A stretch of DNA of 64,000 bases from Anaerohalosphaera lusitana (GTDB lineage: Bacteria; Planctomycetota; Phycisphaerae; Sedimentisphaerales; Anaerohalosphaeraceae): contig NZ_CP019791.1 of the NCBI RefSeq assembly GCF_002007645.1, positions 1,054,001 through 1,118,000 of the forward strand. The letters are read 5' to 3'. The position numbers were made by a program, and so were the translations under genes. Positions 15,510 to 31,383 of this stretch are shown here, piece by piece (the first letter of the stretch is position 1; the number at the start of each line of letters is the position of its first letter). The notes under the pieces are model-generated. The model saw only the letters and a list, made by a program, of their open reading frames with translations, was not told where the DNA came from and ran no database searches.

Positions 15510-16586
15510 ATGGACAAGTATATCGGATTTGACATCGACAGCAAGAAAACAGTGGCATGCGTGGTTCAAAAAGGCAAAAAAGATTGTTTCTCGACCTTTG
15601 AGACGGATCCTGAGAAGATGAAGCAGTTTCTCAAACAGCAAGGCAGCAGGGGTGATCGGCTGCATCTGACCTTCGAGATCAGCGGTCAGGCAGGATATCT
15701 GCACGATCAGCTCAGAGGTCATGTCCAGGATGTGACTGTCTCGAATCCGACACGGATGACCTGGATATACCGCACGAGCAAGAAGAACGACCGGATAGAT
15801 GCCCGCAAGCAGGCGGTTCTGCTCAGCATTGACGAGGTGCCGAAGGTGCATATGCCCAGACTGGAAGTCCGTCAATGGCGAGTGACGATCCAGCACCGCA
15901 GGAAGATGGTCAGCAGGGTCTGTCAGGTCAAAAATCGCATACGGGCGATCATAAAGGCCAACGGCTTCAGTCGGCCCGTGGAGTCTGGAAGCTGGTGGAA
16001 GTTGGCCAATCGTTTATGGATGCGCGGTCTTGCGTGCTTTGAAGCTGATGCTGAACAGCTTTGGCGGATGAGTCTTGCGGATATGCTTGAGGAATTGAAT
16101 ATGCTAGAGTCGCAGCTCAAGCGGGTTACGAACTACCTTGACAGGTATCTGGCAGGCCAGAGTGGCGGTAAGCTGCTGATGAGTGTGCCTGGTGTTGGGC
16201 CACGCACTGCTGAAGCAATTCTGGCTTATACTGACGACATACGCAGGTTCAGACGAACGAAACAGTACTGTGCTTATTTTGGTTTGACGCCTAAGCTTGA
16301 TGAGAGCGGCTCTACTCGTCGACTCGGGCATATCAGCAAACAGGGTCCCAGCGTTGTCCGCTGGCTGCTGGTTGAAAGTGCCTGGCAGGCTATCAGGAAG
16401 AGTCCTGCGCTGAAGGCGTTTTATGAGAAGGTAATGAACGGGCAGAAGGGTCGCGGCAAGATCGCCGCAGTTGCAGTGGCTCGTAAACTGTTGAGTATAA
16501 TGCGCGCGATGCTGGTCAATGGTGAGCTTTTTAATGAGGAGCTTGTCGGCCGGTCTTGCGGTTTTGATATGAGAAAATCGGCTTAG
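15510..16586 (+). CDS. tnpA: IS110/IS1111-family DEDD transposase
   Basis: A 358-residue recombinase with a RuvC-like DEDD domain first (GFDIDSKKT with D8, TFEISGQAGYL, then KKNDRIDARKQA) and a C-terminal Transposase_20 domain (SVPGVGPRTAEAILAYTDDI, GHISKQGPSVVRWLLVESAW). Such enzymes act with a non-coding RNA that pairs to target and donor DNA. AGGAGGCTCCT precedes the ATG. The reading frame is intact. Confidence 0.93.
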   Translation: MDKYIGFDIDSKKTVACVVQKGKKDCFSTFETDPEKMKQFLKQQGSRGDRLHLTFEISGQAGYLHDQLRGHVQDVTVSNPTRMTWIYRTSKKNDRIDARKQAVLLSIDEVPKVHMPRLEVRQWRVTIQHRRKMVSRVCQVKNRIRAIIKANGFSRPVESGSWWKLANRLWMRGLACFEADAEQLWRMSLADMLEELNMLESQLKRVTNYLDRYLAGQSGGKLLMSVPGVGPRTAEAILAYTDDIRRFRRTKQYCAYFGLTPKLDESGSTRRLGHISKQGPSVVRWLLVESAWQAIRKSPALKAFYEKVMNGQKGRGKIAAVAVARKLLSIMRAMLVNGELFNEELVGRSCGFDMRKSA

Positions 16587-17077: not shown

Positions 17078-18603
17078 TTGCGGTTTTATTGTGATGGCGC
17101 TAAAATTCATTCGTGGTTCGAATGAAAGGTTTTTTATGGCATATCGTTATGGTGATCGCTACCAGCGGAGTCTATTTCCGCAGAGTATCGACGATTATGT
17201 GCCAGCCGATTCTCCGGTGCGGGCATACGATGCATTCGTCGACTCGCTGGATTTTGATGAGCTGGGCATCGAGATAAACACCGGCAAGGTCGGCTGTCCG
17301 CAGTACGACCCGGTGAGCATGCTCAAGCTTCTGCTGTACGGCTATAGCTACGGCGTCCGCAGCAGCCGCAAGTTGGAACGTGAAGCGAATTATAATATAT
17401 CGTTCATCTGGCTGACCGGCGGGCTCAAGCCGGACCATAAAACGATCGCTGAGTTCAGACGCAAGAACAGAGGCGCATTAAAAAAGGTTCTGCGTCAGTG
17501 TGCCCGTCTTTGTATAAAGCTGGACCTTATAAAAGGCAACACATTATTCATAGACGGTACGAAGGTCCGGGCGAACGCCTCGAATAAGAATACCTGGACG
17601 AAGGAAAAGTGCCAACGTCGCTTAAAAAGTATCGACAAACGCATCAAGCAGATACTGTCGGAATGCGAGACAGTCGACCGCAAGGAGGTGAATCAGGGTT
17701 CGTGGATAAAGATGGACGAGGAGCTGAGCGATCAGAAGAAACTGCGGTCGAAGGTCGAAAGTATAATGGAGCAAATACAGGCAGAGGACAGTAAATCGAC
17801 CAATATGACCGATCCTGACTGCAAGATGATGCACAGCATACAGGGCAGTCATTCGAGCTATAACGTGCAATCAGCGGTGGATGACGAGAACGGCCTGATC
17901 GTCAACAGCGATGTGGTATCGGACAATCACGACTATAAGCAGTTCGCCGATCAGGTGGACAAAGCCAATGATACACTGGATAATGATTGCGAGACAGCCT
18001 GTGCGGATGCGGGCTATTCAAGCGTGGATGAGCTTGAGAAGATCGACGAAAAAGGGATCGAGGTGGTTGTTCCTTCAAAGAAGCAGGCAGAGAAGAAGAA
18101 GAAAGACGATAATCCGTTCGACAGATCGAAGTTTGAATATGATAAAAAGAACGATTGTTTTATATGTCCCGAGGGACATGTTTTAAAATACAGCTATACT
18201 AATAAGACTAAAAAAGCGAAAGTTTATAGAGGCGGAGCGGCATGTAGAAAATGCCGTCACTTCGGCAAGTGTACGGATCAGCAACGGGGCCGAAGCGTCT
18301 CCCGTCTGCTCAACGCGGATGTGCAGGAGAAGCTGGAGGCGAGGTATGAACAGCCGCGGGCGCAGGAGGTTTACAAGCGTCGCAAGCAGAAGGTGGAGCT
18401 GCCGTTCGGACATATAAAGCGGAACCTGAAGGTCGACAGCTTCCTGCTTCGAGGGCTTGAAGGCGTCAGAGCTGAGGCATCTTTGCTGGCTAGCTGTTTC
18501 AATGTTGCGCGGATGATGAGTCTGCTGGGTGTCGAAAGGCTGATCAGCACGCTGGCGAAGTAGTAAAATGGCCGCTTACTGCTGCGCTATTACAAAATCG
18601 CAG
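17078..18603 (+). mobile_element. IS1182-family element
   Basis: The transposase is flanked by imperfect inverted ends: TTGCGGTTTTATTGTGATGG with CGCT at 17078-17101, and GCGCTATTACAAAATCGCAG at 18584-18603. Shared bases are TGCG[G/A]TTTT near the tip and GCGC inside. The match is partial, so the exact ends and target duplication are not settled. Confidence 0.6.
17136..18563 (+). CDS. tnpA: IS1182-family transposase
   Basis: A 475-residue transposase. The ATG at 17136 (MAYRYGDRYQRSLFP) is preferred to an upstream GTG at 17091, which lies inside the inverted repeat. The N-terminal DUF772-like domain includes YDPVSMLKLLLYGYSYGVRSSRKLE. The DDE core shows LFIDGTKVRANA, then a long insertion with coiled segments, CADAGYSSVDEL, and the C-terminal region PFGHIKRNLKVDSFLLRGLEGVRAEASL, which supplies the catalytic Glu region in this family. 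A four-cysteine segment (CPEGH, CRKCRHFGKC) lies before it. Frame intact. Confidence 0.92.
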   Translation: MAYRYGDRYQRSLFPQSIDDYVPADSPVRAYDAFVDSLDFDELGIEINTGKVGCPQYDPVSMLKLLLYGYSYGVRSSRKLEREANYNISFIWLTGGLKPDHKTIAEFRRKNRGALKKVLRQCARLCIKLDLIKGNTLFIDGTKVRANASNKNTWTKEKCQRRLKSIDKRIKQILSECETVDRKEVNQGSWIKMDEELSDQKKLRSKVESIMEQIQAEDSKSTNMTDPDCKMMHSIQGSHSSYNVQSAVDDENGLIVNSDVVSDNHDYKQFADQVDKANDTLDNDCETACADAGYSSVDELEKIDEKGIEVVVPSKKQAEKKKKDDNPFDRSKFEYDKKNDCFICPEGHVLKYSYTNKTKKAKVYRGGAACRKCRHFGKCTDQQRGRSVSRLLNADVQEKLEARYEQPRAQEVYKRRKQKVELPFGHIKRNLKVDSFLLRGLEGVRAEASLLASCFNVARMMSLLGVERLISTLAK

Positions 18604-18777
18604 CCAAATGCGGCCAAATGAACGAATGAAAAATGGAAACATCAGCGATTCTCGGACAGAGACGCAGAAACAGCAGAAAAGCTAAAACTGACAGCAGTAG
18701 CGACACAGTCTCCGGGTCCGGGATGACGGCTGAGGAGGTGTGCGTACGCGTTGTGTGATCCTTAAATGGAGCAATAG

Positions 18778-19305
18778 ATGAAATTTGAGCTGAATGCTGG
18801 GGATGTATGCGTCAGTCTGTATGAATGTGACTCGCGGAGTGAGCTGGAGGAGCGGTTGAGGCGGGTTGACGGGGTGGTGCTGCTGGATGAGGAACAGTCG
18901 GGCAGCCGGTTTGTGCTGGTGGAAGTTCAGCGATGCGGGGGTGAGGAGGTGCGAGCGTGGGGGATGGATATTGTCGAGCATGGGCCGAGCCCGCAGATGG
19001 TTGTGCATGGGGAGGAGTGCTTGCGGTGGGTTGCTTTCGGGAGCAGTTTGTGGCTGGTGGATGTGTGGGAGGCTCGGGTGGTGAAGTACAATCGGCTGGA
19101 TTGTGTGTTCTGGGATATTGTGAGGATGGATAGTGGAGCTGCAGCAGTCGTGCACGAGTTGGGGGTGACGGCGTATGATGCTGCGGGTGAGCGGTTGTGG
19201 GATGTGAGCGGGTCGGATATGCTGGCGGGGTTTGAGGTGGAGGACGAGCGGATCCTGTGCCGGTTTGATGATGGGACGAGCGCGGAGCGTAAGCTGTCGG
19301 TATGA
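18778..19305 (+). CDS. Hypothetical protein
   Basis: A 175-residue soluble protein of unknown family, starting at ATG 11 bases after a weak GGAGCA. It has alternating beta-strands (VLVEVQRCGG, FGSSLWLVDVWEARVVKYN, VHELGVTAYDAAGERLWDVS) that could form part of a propeller or sandwich. No signal peptide. Strongly G-rich coding strand like the adjacent OsmC gene. It stands alone after the IS1182 element. Confidence 0.6.
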   Translation: MKFELNAGDVCVSLYECDSRSELEERLRRVDGVVLLDEEQSGSRFVLVEVQRCGGEEVRAWGMDIVEHGPSPQMVVHGEECLRWVAFGSSLWLVDVWEARVVKYNRLDCVFWDIVRMDSGAAAVVHELGVTAYDAAGERLWDVSGSDMLAGFEVEDERILCRFDDGTSAERKLSV

Positions 19306-19568
19306 TATTGAAAACCTAATGGATGACTATAATGCAGGTGCGAAAATAATATCACTTCATTAATGGTGTCACTTTTGCTGCGCAAACGCAACACGGTCAA
19401 TGAACTAAGAGTTTCTGCCTTTTGGGTGGTCGCTGGGTTGTTGGTTTTGGGATTATAACGTGGCGGTGTTTGCGTTTTGGCGAATCTGGGGTATGGTTTA
19501 GTTGGGGCGGTGGTGGCGGATTTGTATTGAAATGATATCTATCTCAAGATTTTTTATGGGGGTGCGTT

Positions 19569-20138
19569 ATGCAGGCTGTGACCAAGGAAATTGTGAACGG
19601 GTTGAATGTTGCTAGTATGCAGGAAGCGATCGATGCGATGAAGTCGGATCCGGGGGCGGGTAAGCTGGAGCTTCGGGCTCATAACCGATGGGTTGGCGGA
19701 GCTCATTGTGTGACAGCGATACAGGATTTCAAGCTGGGCGGGGAGGAGAAGAAGACGCGTAAGCAGTTGTTCGAGCTGCACGGGGACGAGCCGGCTGAGC
19801 TGCTGGGTACGGATACGGGGCCGAACGCGACGGAGGCGCTGCTGCATGCGCTGGCGGCGTGTTTGAATGCCACGTTCATTTATCATGCGTCCGCGCAGGG
19901 TGTGGAGGTGGAGTCGCTGGAGATCGAGCTGAAGGGTGAGCTGGATCTGCGGGGATTTCTTGCGGTTGAGCCCGGGATACGGAACGGGTATTCGCATATC
20001 GATGTGAAGTTCAAGGTGAAGGCGGACGCGGGGCAGGCGAAGATCGAGGAGCTTTGCGGGCTCGCGCAGCGGTTTTCACCGGTGTTCGATATGGTGAGCA
20101 ATCCGATGCGTGTGCATGTGAATTGTGAGAAGGTTTAG
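19569..20138 (+). CDS. OsmC-family peroxiredoxin-like protein
   Basis: A 189-residue OsmC/Ohr-superfamily protein. The two reactive cysteines are visible: C98 in LLHALAACLNATF and C163 in ELCGLAQRFSPVFDMVSNP. Also typical are RAHNRWVGGAHC and the long helix after TGPNATEALLHAL. These proteins reduce organic hydroperoxides with a thiol reductant in the cytoplasm; some members act as thiol carriers. Starts at ATG after GGGGGTGCGTT. Probably monocistronic, with a repeat A copy just downstream. Confidence 0.88.
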   Translation: MQAVTKEIVNGLNVASMQEAIDAMKSDPGAGKLELRAHNRWVGGAHCVTAIQDFKLGGEEKKTRKQLFELHGDEPAELLGTDTGPNATEALLHALAACLNATFIYHASAQGVEVESLEIELKGELDLRGFLAVEPGIRNGYSHIDVKFKVKADAGQAKIEELCGLAQRFSPVFDMVSNPMRVHVNCEKV

Positions 20139-20142
20139 GTAT

Positions 20143-20204
20143 GGAGTCGCTTCGCGACGGCTATTTATGCTGAATCCAGAGCCTTCGGCTTTTTGTGATG
20201 ACAA
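20143..20204 (+). repeat. Dispersed repeat A, copy 5
   Basis: GGAGTCGCTTCGCGACGGC, TATTTATGCTGAATCC, AGAGCCTTCGGCTTT hairpin, GTGATGACAAAA, lying just downstream of the OsmC gene. Confidence 0.7.
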
Positions 20205-20239
20205 AATGGGGTGGCCGTTGGTTTTTGAGGACGTGAATG

Positions 20240-20278
20240 AAAAAAGAAGGCGGGGCCTGGTGGGGAGGCGCCCGCCTT
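20240..20278 (-). terminator. Rho-independent terminator of the gene at 20331
   Basis: AAGGCGGG at 20247-20254 pairs perfectly with CCCGCCTT at 20271-20278, and on the minus strand the stem is followed by CTTTTTT. It lies about 50 bases after the stop codon of the secreted protein gene. Confidence 0.8.
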
Positions 20279-20330
20279 AGAGGGTTCGGGAAGTGACTAG
20301 GGGACACTTCCCAGGATCATGTGTGGGATC

Positions 20331-22310
20331 CTATTTGTAACTGACATACCAGAAGCCCTGTATGTTTGATCCGCGGATGTCTGGTCCGATCGGGCCTTGG
20401 CCCCAATAGTAGTCGTTGTAGTTCGTGGTGCCGTTCGGTCCTATTGGTCCCATCACTGCTGCTCGGTTGCCGGAGGGCTGCTTTTGCTGTTTAGCCTTGA
20501 ACCATGCAGCCCTTACGGGAAGCGTCACTGTTGTGAATGCGAAGTTGCGGCCGAGCATGTACTGTGCGTAGCGTTTTGAGAACTTGCCCCAGTCATGTGC
20601 GTTGGTGTGGAAGCCGGTCAGCAAGTGGAGGCCCGCGAATTCATCACGCCAACGGCTGATGGCGCTCTGGTTGTTGGCCGGGCTCTTGAGTACCTGGCAC
20701 GAGAGGAGCGAGAGGAATTCGAGGTCCTTGTTGCCCCATGCGATGCCGGATTCGTTGTGGCGTATGCTGCCGTCGGTGTTGCTTGATTCGAAGGTGAATC
20801 CGCCCGGCCAGCCGTGACCAATGTAGAAGCAGATGTCGACGTTGTCTACGTAGCTGCTGTCGTAAGCGTCTTCTTTGAAGTCGGCTTCCCAGGAGTTCTT
20901 GCCTGTCCAGTTGAAGCGCTGTGTTACGCCTTCGCTGTTGAAGCGGTTGGCGAAGTTGCGCTGGTTGGCACCGCCCATATCCGAGACCGCGCGTTCGATG
21001 CCGTAGTCTGAAACGCCGCCGACAGGTGCCGACGCTGCTGCGAAGACGGATGACGGCGAGACGCTGACCTGCAGGATTGCGCTTTTGGTGACGGATACGC
21101 CGTTGGTGTCGGTCACGGTTACGGATACCATTTCGGAATTGATGGTGTCTTCGCGTGGTACGAGTGCATAGTTTATCTGGCTGGAGGTTGCCTTGTACAG
21201 CGGCATGTTCGAGGATGTCCAATCGTAGGTGTACGGCGGTGTGCCGCCTTCGACGGTTGTTGATGCGAATATCTCACTGCCGTCGGCTGTTGCCGATAGA
21301 TCGACCTGCGGTACGAACTGCGGATCGTTGGTTGCGGGTACTGTGCGGCGGAGCAGTTGTGCGGTCTGTTCGCCTACCGTGATCGAACCGCCGATGTTGT
21401 ACGCGGGGATGATCGCCGACGCTTCGCCGAACTCGAGCGACGGTGCGTAGTAGATCAGCTCGGCGTCGAGGTTGTAGGTTATCTTCGCATCCGGTGCCGG
21501 GTCGAGCGACTTCGCGGTTGTTCCTATCTCGGACGGCAGTGTCTGTGCGAAGTTCTTGATCGCGTTGACCGGCTGGACGAGCGGTACGGGGTCACCTTTT
21601 GCGAGCTGGCGGGTCGAGTGGTGCAGGCCGGTGACGACGCCGCCCGGGCTGAGCGTTACGTTGAGCAGTGCGCCTGGGCCCTGGAGCTCGGTGTTGTTGA
21701 TCTGGAAGTTGTAGTCGATGCGGGTGTCCAGCGGAATCGGTTCGATGATGGGTTTGCCTTCGAGGTCGACTGTTTCCAGGGTTGCGTTCGAGATCGTCGG
21801 CTGTGCGTTCCAGGGTGTCAGGTTGGCCTGCTCGAGTGCGCCGGATACGATGTCGGCTGCTACGTCGCCGGGCACGGGTTGGATCTTCTGCAGTGCGGCG
21901 AAGTCGAAACCTTCGATGCGGATGACCTCGGCGTTGTCGACGTCCCTGGTGTCGCCCAGCAGTGCTTCGCGGATGGCTGGGTCCTGTATTTCGAGGGTGG
22001 GAGCACTTTGGAAGTTTACCGGGTCGACGAAGACTATCGTGCCGTTCTCGTTGCTGATCTCTTTCTCAGGGATGTTGAGCGCGGCTGCGAGCTGTTCGGC
22101 CTGGGTCTGCGATGCACCTGCGCCGGTGACGACGTATACTGGCATCTGTTCGGGGATGGGTTCGTGTTCGAGCCAGTGGCCCGCGAGGACAGCGAAGTCC
22201 TGCATGTCTACGAAATCATCGCCTGTGAGGTCCGGAAAGACCTCCTGGGCCGATGCCGGCAGGGTGATCAACGCAAGGATGAGTAGTGTTGTGGTCAGTT
22301 TTTGTCGCAT
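20331..22310 (-). CDS. Secreted protein with dockerin-like repeat and caspase-like His/Cys C-terminal domain (DUF6345-like)
   Basis: A 659-residue secreted protein starting behind CAGGAGG. Residues 1-21 are a signal peptide. A single dockerin-like calcium loop follows (FPDLTGDDFVDMQDFAVL, 25-42). The middle (about 55-340) is beta-rich, and 345-420 looks like an Ig/PKD-type domain (TTVEGGTPPYTYDWTS). The C-terminal domain (about 430-600) starts GGVSDYGIERAVSDMGG and has VDICFYIGHG with His499 and EFLSLLSCQV with Cys538. That His-Gly and Ser-Cys arrangement after two hydrophobic strands resembles clan CD peptidases such as caspases and gingipains, and the layout resembles DUF6345. Peptidase activity is inference. 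Confidence 0.75.
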   Translation of the reverse strand: MRQKLTTTLLILALITLPASAQEVFPDLTGDDFVDMQDFAVLAGHWLEHEPIPEQMPVYVVTGAGASQTQAEQLAAALNIPEKEISNENGTIVFVDPVNFQSAPTLEIQDPAIREALLGDTRDVDNAEVIRIEGFDFAALQKIQPVPGDVAADIVSGALEQANLTPWNAQPTISNATLETVDLEGKPIIEPIPLDTRIDYNFQINNTELQGPGALLNVTLSPGGVVTGLHHSTRQLAKGDPVPLVQPVNAIKNFAQTLPSEIGTTAKSLDPAPDAKITYNLDAELIYYAPSLEFGEASAIIPAYNIGGSITVGEQTAQLLRRTVPATNDPQFVPQVDLSATADGSEIFASTTVEGGTPPYTYDWTSSNMPLYKATSSQINYALVPREDTINSEMVSVTVTDTNGVSVTKSAILQVSVSPSSVFAAASAPVGGVSDYGIERAVSDMGGANQRNFANRFNSEGVTQRFNWTGKNSWEADFKEDAYDSSYVDNVDICFYIGHGWPGGFTFESSNTDGSIRHNESGIAWGNKDLEFLSLLSCQVLKSPANNQSAISRWRDEFAGLHLLTGFHTNAHDWGKFSKRYAQYMLGRNFAFTTVTLPVRAAWFKAKQQKQPSGNRAAVMGPIGPNGTTNYNDYYWGQGPIGPDIRGSNIQGFWYVSYK

Positions 22311-22661
22311 GATCGCCTCCTGTTAAACAAAATGTACTTTATCTTACCCTACTGTAGCTATGAAACCCTATCGGAACAATAGGGTTTATTCTTAGAATGG
22401 GTTAGGGCGATTCTTAGATGGTTGTGCTGTTGGTTAGCAGGTGTAAAATGACAAGCTTTGGCAAGAACGGCACTTATGATGGAGGCGGGTGGGATGATCA
22501 GGTGTTGACCTTTGGCGTGGGTGAGCATGGCAGCATAGAAAGTTTCCGCCGTGCTTTTGAGTGAGGTGGCAAGGGATACGCCAGCCCGCAAAACACGCTT
22601 GCTGAGACACCTGAAACCCGCTATACTTGCGCCGCTTGATATCCTAATTTGGACCACACAA
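22311..22661. other. Intergenic region with a hairpin
   Basis: 350 bases of divergent space. A perfect 9-bp hairpin (AAACCCTAT at 22363-22371, ATAGGGTTT at 22379-22387, 7-base loop) lies about 55 bases upstream of the secreted-protein start. No gene is supported before the small peptide at 22662. Confidence 0.5.
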
Positions 22662-22757
22662 ATGACACGCAAGACAAAGATATTCCTCTACATCATGCTC
22701 GCCCTCGGCGCCGCCCTGATGATCGCCGGTGTCCTTCTCGAACAGGTGGCAAAATAA
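22662..22757 (+). CDS. 31-residue single-pass membrane peptide, copy 1
   Basis: Encodes MTRKTKIFLYIMLALGAALM then IAGVLLEQVAK: a basic start, one hydrophobic helix and a short polar tail. A second copy lies at 26246-26341. Most differences between the copies are at third codon positions and silent, with three residue changes (Leu/Val, Ala/Thr, Ala/Thr), which supports real translation. The frame continues upstream to 22551, but only the 31-codon part is shared. Function unknown. It precedes the GH106 gene by 24 bases. Confidence 0.65.
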   Translation: MTRKTKIFLYIMLALGAALMIAGVLLEQVAK

Positions 22758-22781
22758 ACCGCAAATATAATTGAGAGATAT

Positions 22782-25700
22782 ATGAATATTACTTCCAGAA
22801 CCTGTTGTTGTTTTATTATCGGATTGTTATTCATTGTTTTATCAGTATCGGCCTTCGGATCACAGGCTGACGCTGTTGTTAAAAGCGATTTTGTTGACCC
22901 TCCCATCGCAGCTAGGCCTGGTGCTTTCTGGCCCTGGCTCAACGGAAGTTTCAGCCTGGAGCGGATCACATACGAATTGGAGGAGATGAAAGACAAGGGA
23001 ATGAGCGGGGCCGATATATGGGATGTTAAGGCGCATGGTGACCCTGATAATATGATCCCGGTCGGACCGGAATTTCTCGGACCCAAATCGCTCAAAGCGA
23101 TAGGCCACGCCGTCAAAGAGGCCGATCGGCTCGGACTGCATCTGGGAATGCTCAACTCGAGCGGCTGGAATGCCGGGGGCACCTGGACCACCCCGGACAT
23201 AGCGGGCATGGGGATGTTTCATTCAAAGATAACCGTAGAAGGGCCGAAGCAGATCGATCAGATATTGCCATTCCCGGAAGTTCCGGCAAACTGCCCCAAA
23301 GACGAAAACGGCAAACCGGTTATTCATAAAGAAATATCCGTTCTTGCCGTACCGCAAAACAATAATGATATGCAAATCGACTCCATCTCAAATGTTGTCG
23401 ATCTCAATGAAAAAATGGATGCAAACGGAAAGCTCACCTGGGATGTTCCCCCAGGCAAATGGACGATCATTCGCCTGGTGATGACCAATACCGGTTACCA
23501 GTTGATAGTTCCATCACCGAATTCCCGCGGCCCTATGATCGATTTTCTAAACCCCCAAGCCTCGCGCAGACATTTCGATCATATTATTGATAAGCTTGAG
23601 TCCGAGATCGGTGACCTGGGAAACTCGCCACTGAAATACCTGGAAGTTGACAGCCTGGAACTGGGGCATCATACGGTATGGACGTATGATATGATCGAAA
23701 AGTTCAGGAAAAACTACGGTTATGACCCGGTCCCATATCTCCCGCTTCTAAAAGGTTTCAAACTTGAAGATGATGATATTGCAAAGCGGTTCAAGTATGA
23801 CTGGAAAAAGCATATCAGCGATGTTTTTATTGAAAGCCATTACCGAACTTCCAGCAACTTCTTAAATGAACACGGGTTAAAACTTTGTGCCGAAGCGGGC
23901 GGCCCTGGAGCTCCTGTCTGGCCCACCTGTCCTGTCGATTCACTGAAGGCACTCGGTTCAGTTGACATCCTTCGCGGTGAGTTCTGGCCCAAAATGCACA
24001 ATATCTGGCTTGTCAAAGAGATATCCTCAGCGGCCCATATTTACGGTAAGAAGGTCGTCGATGCGGAGTCATTTACAAGCTGGAGGCACTGGACGGACGG
24101 ACCTTATTTTCACAAGCAGATGGCTGACGCCGCAATGATCGAAGGGCTCAATCACTTTACCTTCCACACCTTTACGCACAGCCCCGAAGAGGCGGGTCTT
24201 CCCGGACGGGCATATCACGCGGGCACGCACATCAACCCTAATGTGGTCTGGTGGCCGATGGCTCGAGGATTCATCGATTACCTCTCCCGCTGCAGTTATA
24301 TGCTCCAGAAGGGGCTCTTCGTTGCCGACGTGTGTTATTATTACGGCGACCAGGCACCGAATTTTGTTTCCGCCAAAGGTGTTGATTATTCGCTGGAGGC
24401 CGGTTACGACTACGATGTAGTCAACAGCGATGTGATCCTCAATCGCATGTCCGTCAAAGACGGCAGGATCGTTCTGCCGGACGGGATGAGCTATCGCATG
24501 CTCGTTTTACCCGAACGTGAAGATATGAATCTCGATGTTCTGCGCAAGATCGAATCGTTGGTCAAAGCGGGTGCGACCGTTGTCGGCCCAAAACCGACAA
24601 GAAGCGGCTCGCTGGTCGATTATCCGAACCGCGACAAACAGGTTGCCAAACTTGCCGATGAAATATGGGGCGACTGTGATGGCACGACAAAAACCGAAGA
24701 CTCCTATGGAAAAGGACAGGTTTTCTGGAATCGTACTCCTGAGCAGATTATGGCCGAAAGAGGCATCGGCAAAGATTTCAGCTTTGAGGGAACCGATGAG
24801 AGGACAAAACTCCATTACATACATCGCCGCACTGAAAAAGAAGACATATATTTTGTGGTCAACAAGAACGAACGCTGGGAGTCGGTAGAGTGCGCTTTCA
24901 GAGTCACTTCAAAGCAGCCCGAAATATGGTATCCCGATTCAGGCGAGATCAGAGAAGTTGCTAATTATCATGTAAATGCAACCGTGACCAGTATACCTCT
25001 GCACCTTAAACCGGCGGAATCGGTATTCATAGTGTTCCGTCGACCGGCAAAGCGAATTTACTTTACACAAGTCACGCCCACAGACAAAACGAAAACGCCT
25101 CTAAAGCCTGCTTTGGATCCTCACTCAGCCACTCCGGCAGGTGCGATCTGGCTCTCCGACGGCAAGGGTGAGATCGACGACCAGTTTATCACTTTTGATC
25201 TGGGTTCGGTCCAGGATGTCGATAAAATACGTGTATGGAATTACACTGAACGTCTGCGCGGGTTTATGAATTACGGAATCAAGGATTTTGATGTACTTGC
25301 TTCGTCTGACGGTAAAGATTTCCATAACTGCGGGTCCTTCGAACTTAAAGTTGCCCACAGCATCGAGGATAAACATTATCACCAGGACATTGACGTGGAT
25401 ATAGAAGAAGCACGCTACGTTCGCTTCAATGTAAAAACAAATCAAAATTCAAAAGCTTATTGCGGCGGTTTCACCAGGCATGCCGGTCTGTCGAAAGTCA
25501 GGTTCTTCAACGGCAGCAGTGCTGTCCCCGGGGTAACCGTTCAATCCGTATCGAGCGGCAGGGCGTTCGATCCTGCCACGGATGATGATCTCGGTATGGC
25601 TCATCCCGCTGCCGAATTACTGACTGACGAAAAGAACAGCACCTTTTTGCGTGCATGGATACCCGGAACTTATGTGTTAAAAGATAATGCCGGCAAATCT

Positions 25701-26240
25701 CGCAAAATCGATGTCGATTCGATCAGGCCGATGATAGAGGTCAGCGGCGAATGGAAGGTAAGCTTTACACCCAACTGGGGAGCACCGGAAGAAACGACCT
25801 TTGATGAGCTTATCTCATGGACCGATTCCGATGACGATGGAATCAAGTATTACTCGGGCATCGCTGCATATCACAAAGAGATTGATATACCGGAAAAGTA
25901 TTTTAGTTCAGGCTCACATCTCGAGCTCGATCTGGGTGTCGTACAGAAAACCGCCCGCGTGAGGCTGAACGGACAAGAAATTGCAGTACTTTGGAAACCG
26001 CCTTTCACTGTTGACATAACAGACATCGCCATACCGGGCAAAAACAAACTGGTAGTCGAAGTTGCCAATACCTGGACAAACAGACTTATCGGAGACGCAT
26101 ACCTGCCGCCGGAAAAGCAGTTCTGCGAAACCAACCTGCACAGCCGAATGGCACGAAAAGGGCGGAGACTCCAGCCGTCAGGACTGATCGGACCTGTACG
26201 TATCAACGCCGCCAATGACGTGTTTATAAAACAGGACTAG
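22782..26240 (+). CDS. GH106-family glycoside hydrolase (probable alpha-L-rhamnosidase)
   Basis: A 1,152-residue secreted enzyme. Signal peptide about 1-27. The catalytic part begins with the GH106 pattern FVDPPIAARPGAFWPWLNGS, then LEEMKDKGMSGADIWDV, LGLHLGMLNSSGWNAGGTWT and YLEVDSLELG, consistent with removal of alpha-linked L-rhamnose from plant or algal polysaccharides. Around 780-930 a discoidin-like (F5/8 type C) module is inserted (ITFDLGSVQDVDKIRVWNY, RYVRFNVKTNQNS). The last 150 residues form a galactose-binding-like beta-sandwich (LELDLGVVQKTARVRLNGQE). Coding GC skew is balanced, unlike both flanks, and the gene sits between duplicated copies of a 31-codon gene. Confidence 0.85.
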   Translation: MNITSRTCCCFIIGLLFIVLSVSAFGSQADAVVKSDFVDPPIAARPGAFWPWLNGSFSLERITYELEEMKDKGMSGADIWDVKAHGDPDNMIPVGPEFLGPKSLKAIGHAVKEADRLGLHLGMLNSSGWNAGGTWTTPDIAGMGMFHSKITVEGPKQIDQILPFPEVPANCPKDENGKPVIHKEISVLAVPQNNNDMQIDSISNVVDLNEKMDANGKLTWDVPPGKWTIIRLVMTNTGYQLIVPSPNSRGPMIDFLNPQASRRHFDHIIDKLESEIGDLGNSPLKYLEVDSLELGHHTVWTYDMIEKFRKNYGYDPVPYLPLLKGFKLEDDDIAKRFKYDWKKHISDVFIESHYRTSSNFLNEHGLKLCAEAGGPGAPVWPTCPVDSLKALGSVDILRGEFWPKMHNIWLVKEISSAAHIYGKKVVDAESFTSWRHWTDGPYFHKQMADAAMIEGLNHFTFHTFTHSPEEAGLPGRAYHAGTHINPNVVWWPMARGFIDYLSRCSYMLQKGLFVADVCYYYGDQAPNFVSAKGVDYSLEAGYDYDVVNSDVILNRMSVKDGRIVLPDGMSYRMLVLPEREDMNLDVLRKIESLVKAGATVVGPKPTRSGSLVDYPNRDKQVAKLADEIWGDCDGTTKTEDSYGKGQVFWNRTPEQIMAERGIGKDFSFEGTDERTKLHYIHRRTEKEDIYFVVNKNERWESVECAFRVTSKQPEIWYPDSGEIREVANYHVNATVTSIPLHLKPAESVFIVFRRPAKRIYFTQVTPTDKTKTPLKPALDPHSATPAGAIWLSDGKGEIDDQFITFDLGSVQDVDKIRVWNYTERLRGFMNYGIKDFDVLASSDGKDFHNCGSFELKVAHSIEDKHYHQDIDVDIEEARYVRFNVKTNQNSKAYCGGFTRHAGLSKVRFFNGSSAVPGVTVQSVSSGRAFDPATDDDLGMAHPAAELLTDEKNSTFLRAWIPGTYVLKDNAGKSRKIDVDSIRPMIEVSGEWKVSFTPNWGAPEETTFDELISWTDSDDDGIKYYSGIAAYHKEIDIPEKYFSSGSHLELDLGVVQKTARVRLNGQEIAVLWKPPFTVDITDIAIPGKNKLVVEVANTWTNRLIGDAYLPPEKQFCETNLHSRMARKGRRLQPSGLIGPVRINAANDVFIKQD

Positions 26241-26245
26241 CGGAT

Positions 26246-26341
26246 ATGACACGCAAAACGAAGATATTCCTATACATAATGCTGGCCGTAGGCGCCGCCT
26301 TGATGATCACCGGCGTCCTCCTCGAACAGGTGACAAAATGA
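26246..26341 (+). CDS. 31-residue single-pass membrane peptide, copy 2
   Basis: Encodes MTRKTKIFLYIMLAVGAALM then ITGVLLEQVTK, the near twin of the peptide at 22662. Its TGA overlaps the ATG of the acetyltransferase gene (ATGA), so the two are translationally coupled. A weak AGGA lies 12 bases upstream. The coupling suggests this copy is in the ancestral position. Function unknown. Confidence 0.7.
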   Translation: MTRKTKIFLYIMLAVGAALMITGVLLEQVTK

Positions 26342-26853
26342 ATCGCAGGAAACTAACCATCCGCGACGAAACCCCCTCAGACATTGCCGCCATCTCCCGC
26401 ATCACCCGGGCCGCCTTCAAAACCTGCCCCTACAGCAACGACACCGAGCACCTCATAATAAACGCTCTCCGAGCCGCCGACGCTCTTACCATCTCACTCG
26501 TCGCCGAACTCGACGGCACACCGGCAGGGCACGTCGCACTCTCGCCCGTCACCTTCTCCGACGGCAGCACGGACTGGTTCGGCCTCGGTCCCATCGCCGT
26601 CATCCCCGAAAAACAGAAACAGGGCATCGGCACCGCACTGATGAACCGCGCCCTCGAACAACTAAGGACCCACAACGCCGCAGGCTGCATCCTCGTAGGC
26701 GACCCCGCATACTACACCCGCTTTGGCTTCACGGCCTACCCGCAGATAACCCACGAAGGCGTACCACCCGAAAACGTACTGGCCCTACCCTTCACCGACC
26801 ACCTACCCACCGGCCAGGTAACATTCCACAAAGCCTTCAGCGTAACGGAATAA
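26338..26853 (+). CDS. GNAT-family N-acetyltransferase (YhbS-like)
   Basis: A 171-residue acyltransferase. The GNAT fold is seen as IRDETPSDIAAISRITRAAF (motif C/D), LVAELDGTPAGHVALSPVTF, then the acetyl-CoA-binding motif A, LGPIAVIPEKQKQGIGTALM, and CILVGDPAYYTRFGFTAYPQ, typical of the YhbS subgroup. It transfers an acetyl group from acetyl-CoA to an amine; the acceptor is unknown. Coupled by ATGA overlap to the 31-residue membrane peptide. Confidence 0.85.
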   Translation: MNRRKLTIRDETPSDIAAISRITRAAFKTCPYSNDTEHLIINALRAADALTISLVAELDGTPAGHVALSPVTFSDGSTDWFGLGPIAVIPEKQKQGIGTALMNRALEQLRTHNAAGCILVGDPAYYTRFGFTAYPQITHEGVPPENVLALPFTDHLPTGQVTFHKAFSVTE

Positions 26854-26881
26854 GATTTACTGCTGAAACAGAGGATTAACC

Positions 26882-27352
26882 ATGGTACAATTTATTGCCA
26901 GGCTCACAGGGAATGACTTTTCAAAATTAGGAGTTTCAGTTGAGCTTTCAAATGGTACCGTTTGTGAGGCAAGATATACAGGAGACAGCATATTTCGCCT
27001 TAAATGGCGTATAGATATTGAATTCGAATTAGCGTGTGAGAATACAAAAGTTGATTTCAAGGTGATTTCCAAAAACTTATTTCGTACTATTTATGCTGCT
27101 TTTGACGGTAAAAAAGAAGTTTTAAGGTTGGTGTCTTGTATTTTCTCAGACTATATAATAGTAAATGGCAAAAAAGAAAGAATGGCAGGGGTTATTAGCA
27201 CAAGAGTAGAAAACTTGGGTTTCTTTGGCGAAAGTCATCCATTTTTAATAGGAAGCAATTACAAGGGGGAATTTGAAGATGATCATATTCTTCACGGCAC
27301 AATAGTTGCAACTTACTGTGTATTGAAAATGTCGTTTACAGATTCACTGTGA
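26882..27352 (+). CDS. Hypothetical protein, AT-rich
   Basis: A 156-residue soluble protein of unknown family, following the GNAT gene by 28 bases. A weak GAGGATTAACC precedes the ATG. It alternates beta-strands (FSKLGVSVELSNGTVCEARY, RLKWRIDIEFELACE, ADYIIVNGKK) and lacks a signal peptide or membrane helix. Its AT-rich composition stands out between two GC-rich, C-biased genes, suggesting separate origin. Confidence 0.6.
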   Translation: MVQFIARLTGNDFSKLGVSVELSNGTVCEARYTGDSIFRLKWRIDIEFELACENTKVDFKVISKNLFRTIYAAFDGKKEVLRLVSCIFSDYIIVNGKKERMAGVISTRVENLGFFGESHPFLIGSNYKGEFEDDHILHGTIVATYCVLKMSFTDSL

Positions 27353-27374
27353 CCTTCAAGACAAGACGCCCCCC

Positions 27375-27499
27375 CTAATACCCCACACACAACCACTCCA
27401 GCATCAGCCGCTCCAGATCCGCAGGTCGACCACCCGGTCGCCGGTAATATCCGCCTCATACAGTATCCATTGCTCCGACCGCAATCGGCACACTTCCAT
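27375..27499 (-). pseudogene. Remnant of a dockerin-like domain (frameshifted C-terminus)
   Basis: On the minus strand, YEADITGDRVVDLR is followed, after restoring one missing G, by DLERLMLEWLCVGY and a stop. The joined sequence is a complete D-x-T-x-D dockerin-like loop and helix as found at the ends of secreted proteins in this window. It lies directly downstream of the DMT gene with no upstream secreted part, so it is a decayed tail of a lost gene. Confidence 0.5.
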
Positions 27500-27502
27500 C
27501 AG

Positions 27503-28375
27503 TTACCCAGCCGCCTTCTCCCGCCTCGCCTTGCCGTTGCGCAGCGTCGCCTCGACCGCGTTCGACGTAACCGCCACCAGCACGACCACCCCGCCTGCCA
27601 GCGCCCACTCGCCCGGCACCTCGCCCACGAATATCAGCACCCACACCGGGTTCAGTATCGGCTCCAGCGTGCATATCATCACCGCGTCGATAGCCTTGAC
27701 CCGCGATATCCCCCGCGCATACAGCACATACGGGATCCCCAACTGCACCACCCCCAGCAGCACCAGGTTCACCCAGCTAACCGCCCCGGGCATACTCTCG
27801 AACATGAACGGCAGGCCCAGCACCGCGGTAAACACGTTGCCCAGGAATATCGACCCCATCGCCGCCTCCATCCGCTGCTTGCGCATCACCAGCATCATCA
27901 TCCCGAATGAAAGCCCCGTCGCCACCCCCAGCACGTTTCCCCAAAGACCTTCCGCTGACACCTCACCTACGAAAAACAGCACCATCCCCCCGATCGCCGC
28001 CGCTATCGCGATCCAGTTATACAGCCGGATCTTCTCGCCCAGGAACCACCCGCTCAGCAGCGCCACATATATCGGCGCCGTATACTGCAGCAGTATCACG
28101 TTCGCCGCCGTCGTCAGCTTGTTCGCCACCGCATACAGCAGCACCGCGCCGATATAGCACACCGCCCCGGCAAGCTGCACCCGAGAAAACGTCAGCCACT
28201 CCCGCTTCATGAAAAACGCCAGCACCACCGCCCCGATCGCGCTCCGCATCCCCCCGATCGCCATCCCGTTCCACTCGATGCTCTTGACAAGCACACCGCC
28301 CAGGCTCCAAAGCAGCGCAGTCGCCACCAGCAGCCCAACACCCTTCGCCCGTTCTTTCTCGACATGCCCCGTCAT
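27503..28375 (-). CDS. DMT-superfamily transporter (EamA-type)
   Basis: A 290-residue inner-membrane protein with about ten hydrophobic helices in two repeated halves, each beginning with the EamA pattern (LLVATALLWSLGGVLVKSIE; LWGNVLGVATGLSFGMMMLV). Such proteins export or exchange amino acids, nucleotides or other small metabolites; the substrate cannot be read from sequence. Starts at 28375 with MTGHVEKERAKG. The plus strand is strongly C-rich here. Confidence 0.88.
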   Translation of the reverse strand: MTGHVEKERAKGVGLLVATALLWSLGGVLVKSIEWNGMAIGGMRSAIGAVVLAFFMKREWLTFSRVQLAGAVCYIGAVLLYAVANKLTTAANVILLQYTAPIYVALLSGWFLGEKIRLYNWIAIAAAIGGMVLFFVGEVSAEGLWGNVLGVATGLSFGMMMLVMRKQRMEAAMGSIFLGNVFTAVLGLPFMFESMPGAVSWVNLVLLGVVQLGIPYVLYARGISRVKAIDAVMICTLEPILNPVWVLIFVGEVPGEWALAGGVVVLVAVTSNAVEATLRNGKARREKAAG

Positions 28376-28462
28376 AGCTTCCCTTAACGAACACTCAACC
28401 CAAAACGCTCAACAAAAAACACACCGCCCAACTATAACGCCTCACCGCAACCCCTTCCAGCA

Positions 28463-28500
28463 CAAAAAAAGGCGGCAGCCCAACAGGACTCACCGCCTTT
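28463..28500 (-). terminator. Rho-independent terminator of the PEP-CTERM gene at 28531
   Basis: AAAGGCGG at 28468-28475 pairs with CCGCCTTT at 28493-28500; on the minus strand the stem is followed by TTTTTTT. It lies 31 bases after the stop codon. Confidence 0.85.
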
Positions 28501-28530
28501 AAAAATTTCAAGTCAAATATGCTGCTTTGC

Positions 28531-29208
28531 TTACTTCTTCCTTCTCAGCAGCGCCAGACCGCCCAGACCAAGCAGTGCAACCGTAGCGGGCTCAGGCACT
28601 GTGTAACCGTAAACAACCGTCACACAACCGCTGCTCTCTGTCGAAACATTGCTAACGCCGTTGCCGGGCATTGACAAAGCAGAATTTGCATTGCCGACCA
28701 GCGAAAAATCAACCGTGCCGCCGCCGATGAACATGCTAAGATCATCGCCTGCTCCAAAAGCTACCGTCTGGCTATCGCTTTCATCCATGTATTCCTGGCT
28801 GAAGCCCGATGTGCCGGCAAAATCCGTAATTCCATCATACGCGGTCAGGTCCATCTGATAGTCTTCCAGAACTTCCCACGCAACATCCGCCAGCGAACTG
28901 CCGTCAAGCGAAATGCCCAGGTCGCCGTTCGTGGTGTAAGTTTCCTCGCCCATCGTGAAATACGTCGAGATCGTGCGATACACCGGGTTATCCGTGTTAT
29001 TCTCGAAGTTGATCGTGCCGTTGGCCCCGACCGTCGCGGTGATCTGAACGCTGTCCAGCGTACCCAGCGATGTGTCGAACTGAGCGACCGACAAAGTCTC
29101 GTCGACATTGAAATAGCCGTCAAAACTGTCCGTGTAGGTCACAAAATCCGCATTCGCCGCACCGGCCAACACACAAATACCCAAAACTGCCAAAAGTGTC
29201 TTTCTCAT
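28531..29208 (-). CDS. PEP-CTERM sorting domain protein
   Basis: A 225-residue exported protein. The ATG at 29208 opens a signal peptide (MRKTLLAVLGICVLAGAANA) and is preferred over an upstream in-frame start at 29310. The body consists of Asp/Thr-rich beta segments (TYTDSFDGYFNVDETLSVAQ) suggesting an extracellular sandwich fold. The C-terminus has Val-Pro-Glu-Pro-Ala-Thr, ALLGLGGLALL and RRKK: a textbook PEP-CTERM anchor. It has its own promoter (29400-29427) and terminator (28463-28500), so it is monocistronic. Confidence 0.88.
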   Translation of the reverse strand: MRKTLLAVLGICVLAGAANADFVTYTDSFDGYFNVDETLSVAQFDTSLGTLDSVQITATVGANGTINFENNTDNPVYRTISTYFTMGEETYTTNGDLGISLDGSSLADVAWEVLEDYQMDLTAYDGITDFAGTSGFSQEYMDESDSQTVAFGAGDDLSMFIGGGTVDFSLVGNANSALSMPGNGVSNVSTESSGCVTVVYGYTVPEPATVALLGLGGLALLRRKK

Positions 29209-29521
29209 TTTACCCTCGCTCTCTGGAAACCGCCCTCCGGCGGCCCCGTACAAATAACAAAATATACCTTCAAATTCCGTATCGGCGCACACCGATCCGG
29301 CAAAATCCAACTGGGAATTCTTCCTTGAGTGCTCCCATCACCTTCCCTGCAAAAGCTCTATCTCCTGCGATCCGACAAATCCTCTCTCTCCAGCTCACTA
29401 GTATAGTGTCTTGGCCGTCCGTGTCAAGCAAAAACTCCGTATTTACCACGATGCAATACTTTTAACGAACAAATATTAGGCATTTATGAGCGTTCCGCCG
29501 CTTTCCCAGGAAATCTTCAAA
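29209..29521. other. Leader and intergenic region upstream of the PEP-CTERM gene
   Basis: No gene seen. It holds the promoter at 29400-29427 and therefore a leader of about 185 bases for the gene at 28531. Confidence 0.5.
29400..29427 (-). promoter_or_regulatory. Sigma-70-type promoter of the PEP-CTERM gene at 28531
   Basis: Minus strand: TTGACA (29422-29427), 16 bases, TATACT (29400-29405). Confidence 0.65.
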
Positions 29522-29641
29522 TTATCTTCCCCGCCTCATAACCGCACTGTCCCACTCCTTCAGCACCCACTCGCCCAATTGGCCCGGCACCCAGTCAGCC
29601 TCACTAACAATCGCATCCCCCGCCTGGTAGCGACTGTTATT
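29522..29641 (-). pseudogene. C-terminal fragment of a gene cut by the IS110 element
   Basis: Immediately beyond the IS110 transposase stop, the minus strand stays open for about 38 codons (SRYQAGDAIVSEADWVPGQL, GEWVLKEWDSAVMRRGR, then TAA). Codon use is like neighbouring genes. It has no start of its own and probably is the 3' part of a gene interrupted by the element; a short start-like piece, MRAEVLEAVMRRSLDVREGV, reads in the same direction on the far side from 30886. Identity unknown. Confidence 0.4.
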
Positions 29642-29645
29642 AAAA

Positions 29646-30794
<1,149 letters not shown>

Positions 30795-30996
30795 TTATAC
30801 AAGGGTGGGCCATGCCCACGCAACTTCACGCCTTCTCGCACATCTAAGCTTCTCCGCATAACGGCCTCAAGCACTTCCGCTCTCAAATTGTCATTCCTTC
30901 AATCGAGCAAAACCCTCACTCTCCCTTTCGCCGTCAACCGTCAATTTTCTGTTTAGCACCTCATTGCATTTGCTCAAAAGTGATCCCACATACCCG

Positions 30997-31383
30997 TCAT
31001 TCATAAACTATCTGCTCCACCGCCTTCCACGCCTTGTGAAATTCTTCCATCTGCTTCGCATTCAAGCCTTGAAAATCCCGGTTCACATACATATATTCTC
31101 CGTCCTTCTTTGCTTCCAGACTGCACCTGTCCCGCCACTCCTTGTCATGCACAACCGCCTCCCAGACCATCTCGATGACCTCTCCCCGACAAGCCGTCGC
31201 CGATTCGATATTCTCGCAGACAAGTACATCCCTTTTTGTGCCCGTGTGCACGGAACTGCTCGTCCATGACCACAGGTTAATCCCTGCCTTTTCCGCAGCC
31301 AGACTAACAGCCTCCACAGTCACTACAAGCAAAGCCACAGCTACCAGCACCCGCCAAATTTTACCAAACCTGATTCTCTCCAT
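30997..31383 (-). CDS. Hypothetical protein with N-terminal membrane anchor
   Basis: A 128-residue protein: MERIRFGKIWRVLVAVALLV forms a membrane anchor or uncleaved signal, followed by a periplasmic domain of about 100 residues (RDVLVCENIESATACRGEVI, two cysteines). No family recognised. It is the last gene of a minus-strand series with the TPR, SUMF1 and small membrane protein genes. A ten-codon copy of its start (MDRNRFGKIG then stop) is found upstream of the TPR gene. Confidence 0.6.
   Translation of the reverse strand: MERIRFGKIWRVLVAVALLVVTVEAVSLAAEKAGINLWSWTSSSVHTGTKRDVLVCENIESATACRGEVIEMVWEAVVHDKEWRDRCSLEAKKDGEYMYVNRDFQGLNAKQMEEFHKAWKAVEQIVYE

Follow-up and report, generated by a model that had tools for sequence, protein, structure and literature searches.

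Two copies of a 31-codon frame lie at this locus on either side of a gene for a GH106 alpha-L-rhamnosidase, all on the same strand, and the second copy runs into a gene for a GNAT acetyltransferase (Table 1). The window, that is the whole stretch of 64,000 nucleotides that was analysed, is part of a genome consisting of a single contig of 4.25 Mb. The stop of copy 1 and the start of the GH106 gene are separated by 24 nt, the stop of the GH106 gene and the start of copy 2 by 5 nt, and the stop of copy 2 overlaps the GNAT start in the tetranucleotide ATGA (26338-26341), with the Shine-Dalgarno-like hexamer AGGTGA ending 4 nt ahead of the GNAT ATG.

Table 1. Features of the duplicated peptide locus (positions within the window).
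Feature	Position	Strand	Basis
Peptide gene copy 1, 31 codons, TAA stop	22662-22757	+	Repeat comparison and selection test
GH106 alpha-L-rhamnosidase gene, 1152 codons	22782-26240	+	PF17132 profile, E 2.2e-159
Peptide gene copy 2, 31 codons, TGA stop	26246-26341	+	Repeat comparison
AGGTGA, Shine-Dalgarno-like, in the last codons of copy 2	26328-26333	+	Read from the sequence; putative function
GNAT acetyltransferase gene	26338-26853	+	PF00583 profile, E 4.1e-12

Divergent from copy 1 lies a gene for a DUF6345 protein (20331-22310, minus strand), with relatives (E 1e-20) in 6 of the 38 other genomes of the family. Downstream of GNAT, a 156-codon frame (26882-27352) has a GC3 of 0.29, far under that of its neighbours; it returned zero profile matches in Pfam, NCBIfam, PHROGs and PADLOC and is possibly a recent arrival. 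Further on, a PEP-CTERM protein with a choice-of-anchor E domain is encoded on the minus strand (28531-29310), which may hint that the organism sorts surface proteins by an exosortase-type route. Transposase genes are found within about 8 kb on each side of the locus (15510-16586, IS110; 17091-18563, DDE; 29646-30743, IS110), and defence-gene profiles gave zero matches against six proteins of the window.

The predicted translations of copy 1 and copy 2 are MTRKTKIFLYIMLALGAALMIAGVLLEQVAK and MTRKTKIFLYIMLAVGAALMITGVLLEQVTK, respectively, each followed by its stop. The two copies form a direct repeat of 102 nt with 86% identity, the longest detected within 21000-28000, and when copy 1 was searched with short flanks against the DNA of the own genome, copy 2 came up at E = 1.1e-28; this value, together with the selection test given below, rules out a chance likeness of two short frames. 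The final codons common to both copies are GAA CAG GTG, GCA or ACA, and AAA, and the pair of peptides ending in LLEQV-A/T-K that was described in a first-pass annotation of this DNA is confirmed. In copy 1, the equivalent 3' end runs into TAA and holds no ATG. No third copy or remnant was recovered from the 4.25-Mb genome by protein search (E up to 10), and the 18 further matches of the DNA search (E up to 10) all had E values of at least 0.5 over at most 35 bases; genome-wide, only two copies were thus found.

Eleven of the 31 sense codons differ between the copies, eight of them silently and three by replacement (L15V, A22T and A30T), and the stops are TAA and TGA, thus bearing out the earlier statement that most base differences are silent. 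By the NG86 method dN is 0.044 and dS 0.57 (ratio about 0.08); LWL85 gave 0.065/0.55 and YN00 0.047/0.75. Simulation of unselected change with an equal number of base differences led to an expectation of about 8 amino acid differences against the 3 observed, the probability of 3 or fewer ranging from 0.00015 to 0.00135 when four transition biases were tried with either copy as the start; the test rests on two sequences and on a simple model of mutation that takes no account of composition bias. When the 102-nt repeat is read in all six frames, that of the peptide is the best conserved, with 4 residue differences against 8-12 in the other five. The proposal that the peptide has been selected since the duplication is therefore upheld by dN/dS, simulation and six-frame comparison alike and, as judged from codon changes, both copies are retained through purifying selection on the amino acid sequence.

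Since the one gene enclosed by the direct repeats differs in composition, these might be read as a DNA feature with the frame in them a by-product, for example as the site at which a GH106 cassette recombines or attaches. This we regard as extremely improbable, since the differences are distributed by codon position in one frame with an excess of silent changes, the likeness sets in right at the ATG and breaks off 6 nt past the stop, the GH106 gene fills the space between the repeats with no integrase gene there, and no third copy is found. The same abrupt beginning at the ATG disfavours a longer version of copy 1 starting at a GTG (22551, 68 codons).

At the edges of the repeat, 5 of the 6 bases next to the stops match, falling to 6 of 24 over the length of the gap; the probability of the former is 0.0046 for a preset length, but as the length was picked after looking, it serves as a hint only. 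The likeness had been claimed to run past the stop of copy 1 into sequence resembling the GNAT start: the likeness past the stop is weaker than this, and the resemblance of the 24-nt gap to the GNAT start is no better than that of shuffled sequences (117 of 200 as good). Upstream, no likeness in register was seen over 60 bases, and local alignments of the flanks were equalled by 44 of 200 shuffles over 100 nt and by 183 of 200 over 350 nt; downstream, over 200 nt, by 172 of 200. A dS of about 0.57 implies that the event was not recent, and unconstrained flanks may thus have lost their likeness, which would explain the sharp edges.

The predicted peptide opens with a basic segment, MTRKTK, continues with about 20 hydrophobic residues and closes in a short polar tail, EQV-A/T-K. 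Mean Kyte-Doolittle hydropathy over residues 7-26 is 2.6 in copy 1 and 2.5 in copy 2, giving one hydrophobic stretch of sufficient length to span the membrane, and of the 215 frames in the window that start with ATG and have 25-45 codons, only 3 are strongly hydrophobic, two of these being the copies. Under the positive-inside rule a basic N-terminus points to the cytoplasmic side which, combined with the hydrophobic stretch, predicts a single-pass protein of the inner membrane in that orientation. The best Pfam profile match of the peptide (E 0.39) stayed below the cut-off, no NCBIfam profile matched copy 1 at E of 0.001 or less, the best PHROGs match had an E of 0.14, and solved structures gave one match only, at E 1.8.

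In size, single hydrophobic stretch and duplication, the present frames resemble the toxins of type I toxin-antitoxin systems. That the locus holds two copies of such a toxin is nevertheless very unlikely: copy 2 is squeezed between the GH106 gene and the GNAT start, with no room outside the GH106 gene for a promoter and a long leader, and no Rfam family reached its gathering score within 18000-31000. A likeness in kind is offered by YohP of E. coli, a bacterial single-transmembrane small protein of 27 aa according to the passages cited (PMC7549839), as the peptide described here is also of about 30 residues with essentially one hydrophobic stretch; unlike YohP, it has two copies with an unrelated enzyme gene between them and is known from a single lineage. 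For the class of single-pass small membrane proteins, which comprises translated products of less than about 50 residues, a frame of 31 codons with selection on its amino acids would be a candidate member. So far as searched, it probably encodes a lineage-specific single-pass membrane microprotein of an ordinary kind, the membrane location being predicted from hydrophobicity.

Relatives of the peptide were sought in other genomes, as the first-pass annotation had proposed, and no confident one was found outside the own genome in the order, phylum, phage and plasmid sets. Among the 160 other genomes of the order (66 of the 161 in the set being at least 90% complete), copy 1 had no convincing match, with 8 genomes showing one at E of 1 or less (best 0.21); among 391 other genomes drawn from the phylum, a set overlapping that of the order, one match fell at E of 0.1 or less (0.084). 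The phage and plasmid collections gave no match to copy 1, and viral contigs contained 0 matches to a degenerate DNA pattern that stands for residues 1-12. A permissive tblastn search with both copies was performed on 35 loci, comprising 24 loci with GH106 from the family (out of 33 matches there outside the own genome), wider stretches of two of them, 6 GNAT stretches, L004, L005 and a locus of genome G120 that had been entered because of an earlier match. The G120 locus was the best (E 0.002 and 0.005), all others having E of at least 0.84, and 16 further loci (9 DUF6345 and 7 GH106 from the phylum search) gave a best E of 2.0; most of these loci cover 1.5 kb on each side of a partial-gene match, some at contig ends, so that a peptide gene lying farther away would escape.

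The G120 match is the N-terminus of an 81-residue protein that begins with MTRKTKI (E 0.22). Origin of the peptide from it was considered and rejected, as it belongs to another family whose member in the own genome starts quite differently; the likeness is probably due to chance among hydrophobic N-termini, and a distant relation is conceivable. Proteins of this kind (81-88 aa, with a hydrophobic N-terminus) have matches at E of 1e-3 or less in 39 of the 161 order genomes by row count, their genes being placed, for instance, at G000:C1:1583757-1583990 on the minus strand (L102, 1755-2021, minus strand) and at L071 831-1076. The gene precedes one for a membrane protein in which 4Fe-4S-like cysteine motifs can be read, and in genome G120 it starts just past a selenocysteine tRNA gene.

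As to the gene between the copies, the PF17132 profile assigns it to the GH106 alpha-L-rhamnosidases (532.8 bits, cut-off 29), with an additional match to the NF045579 jelly-roll domain and nothing unusual noticed beyond its domains; both PF17132 matches in the genome (E of 0.001 or less) fall within it, thus making it the only such gene found. Its GC3 of 0.54 contrasts with 0.74 in copy 1, 0.71 in copy 2 and 0.74 in GNAT, but is well inside the spread of the 51 frames of the window (mean 0.59, SD 0.13) and no outlier. Two other families of the phylum contain matches to it whose best stretches reach 809 and 775 bits; within the family the best figure is 640 bits, taken from one piece of a match that is split. 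The GC3 contrast with the neighbours and the higher scores out of the family lend weak support to an acquisition of the GH106 gene.

Strong relatives of the GNAT protein (E 1e-20) occur in 8 of the 38 other genomes of the family, which numbers 39 genomes in our set and in which the own genome alone carries its genus label. Many of these relatives begin near residue 4 to 6 of the GNAT described here, with variable starts and one nearly as long; its first codons, read in this way, may be local sequence. Nine relatives (those of the eight family genomes and, out of five from a separate search, the one of Desulfarculus, L004) were examined for an upstream frame, and none has a small hydrophobic frame within 420 nt upstream of GNAT. 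The linkage is thus not seen at family level, and the earlier view that peptide-GNAT was the original order gains no support from these relatives; within the genus it may be ancestral. Absence of the peptide frame from related genomes had been named beforehand as an argument against selection; the relatives compared do lack it, but they are too distant to refute selection acting between the two copies. For the neighbouring OsmC, DUF6345, EamA and two uncharacterised proteins, the 35 loci of the tblastn search yielded no match at E 1e-3; 6 of the 8 GNAT loci from other family genomes are among these loci.

Three orders of events fit the data: an original peptide-GNAT order with entry of the GH106 gene along with a duplication, duplication followed by insertion, or arrival of the GH106 gene with a peptide gene of its own. 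The first-pass annotation had opted for the first, which the data do not favour over the other two. The third, in which GH106 arrived by recombination of foreign DNA and the copies diverged in different lineages, would account for a dS of about 0.57 between the copies with no likeness in their flanks and for the two out-of-family GH106 matches that outscore the best in-family one. We nonetheless deem it unlikely, as no peptide accompanies the GH106 relatives (24 of 33 family matches and 7 of the phylum, in short flanks only) and the GC3 of the copies resembles that of GNAT. In the history we prefer, the duplication would have left one peptide copy on either side of GH106, which probably entered between the copies, or together with the duplication; transposase genes lie close to this stretch.

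Regarding expression, each copy directly precedes a larger gene in the same orientation, which allows the frames to be viewed as leader or coupling ORFs that set the translation of the rhamnosidase and of GNAT, the peptide itself having little function. An overlap of the type used to recognise coupled pairs (ATGA or TGATG) is present between copy 2 and GNAT, where AGGTGA lies inside copy 2, and absent between copy 1 and GH106, where the 24-nt distance is too far for tight coupling. Moreover, the amino acids were kept while silent sites changed, beyond the need of a pure coupling ORF. An explanation by leader function with little role for the peptide is, in our estimate, rather unlikely. Since the amino acids are preserved, beyond the open frame as such, the peptide itself is most likely functional, with coupling secondary for copy 2.

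That genes overlapping by ATGA can be coupled through termination-reinitiation is well established, as stated in the passages cited (PMC6728339, PMC10666635). Copy 2 and GNAT are similar to such coupled pairs in their 4-nt overlap and in the Shine-Dalgarno-like sequence within the upstream codons; they differ in that the upstream gene has only 31 codons, and the copy 1/GH106 pair in having no overlap. Under the reading that we favour, the peptide would be placed in the inner membrane, N-terminus inward, and exert its action there, probably by modulating or stabilising a process or partner in the membrane. Copy 2 would be translated just ahead of GNAT, which would start by termination-reinitiation at the ATGA, helped by the AGGTGA within the peptide codons, and copy 1 would lead GH106 in the same gene run, less tightly coupled across its gap. 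Against this reading, a sigma-70 scan showed no promoter-like site upstream of copy 1, with 3 sites in the region against 6.0 expected from shuffles.

A bolder proposal is that the peptide gene is a portable coupling module, in which a selected microprotein with a ribosome site at its 3' end and a start-stop overlap is copied ahead of incoming genes; if so, these genes would join an existing expression unit and be made together with the microprotein, but we hold this to be most improbable. The reading as a whole, namely a duplicated, selected and lineage-restricted membrane microprotein whose second copy is probably coupled to GNAT, is the one that we consider likelier to be right, with moderate confidence.

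Among the literature titles surveyed, including those on GH106 in Planctomycetota, such a pair is not described. The absence of known relatives is the usual obstacle for orphan microproteins, and here the duplicate pair within one genome lets the reality of a 31-codon gene be tested from within, even without them. If confirmed, the locus would contribute an orphan microprotein of the membrane and illustrate, on a small scale, the fitting of a carbohydrate-enzyme gene into a gene run.
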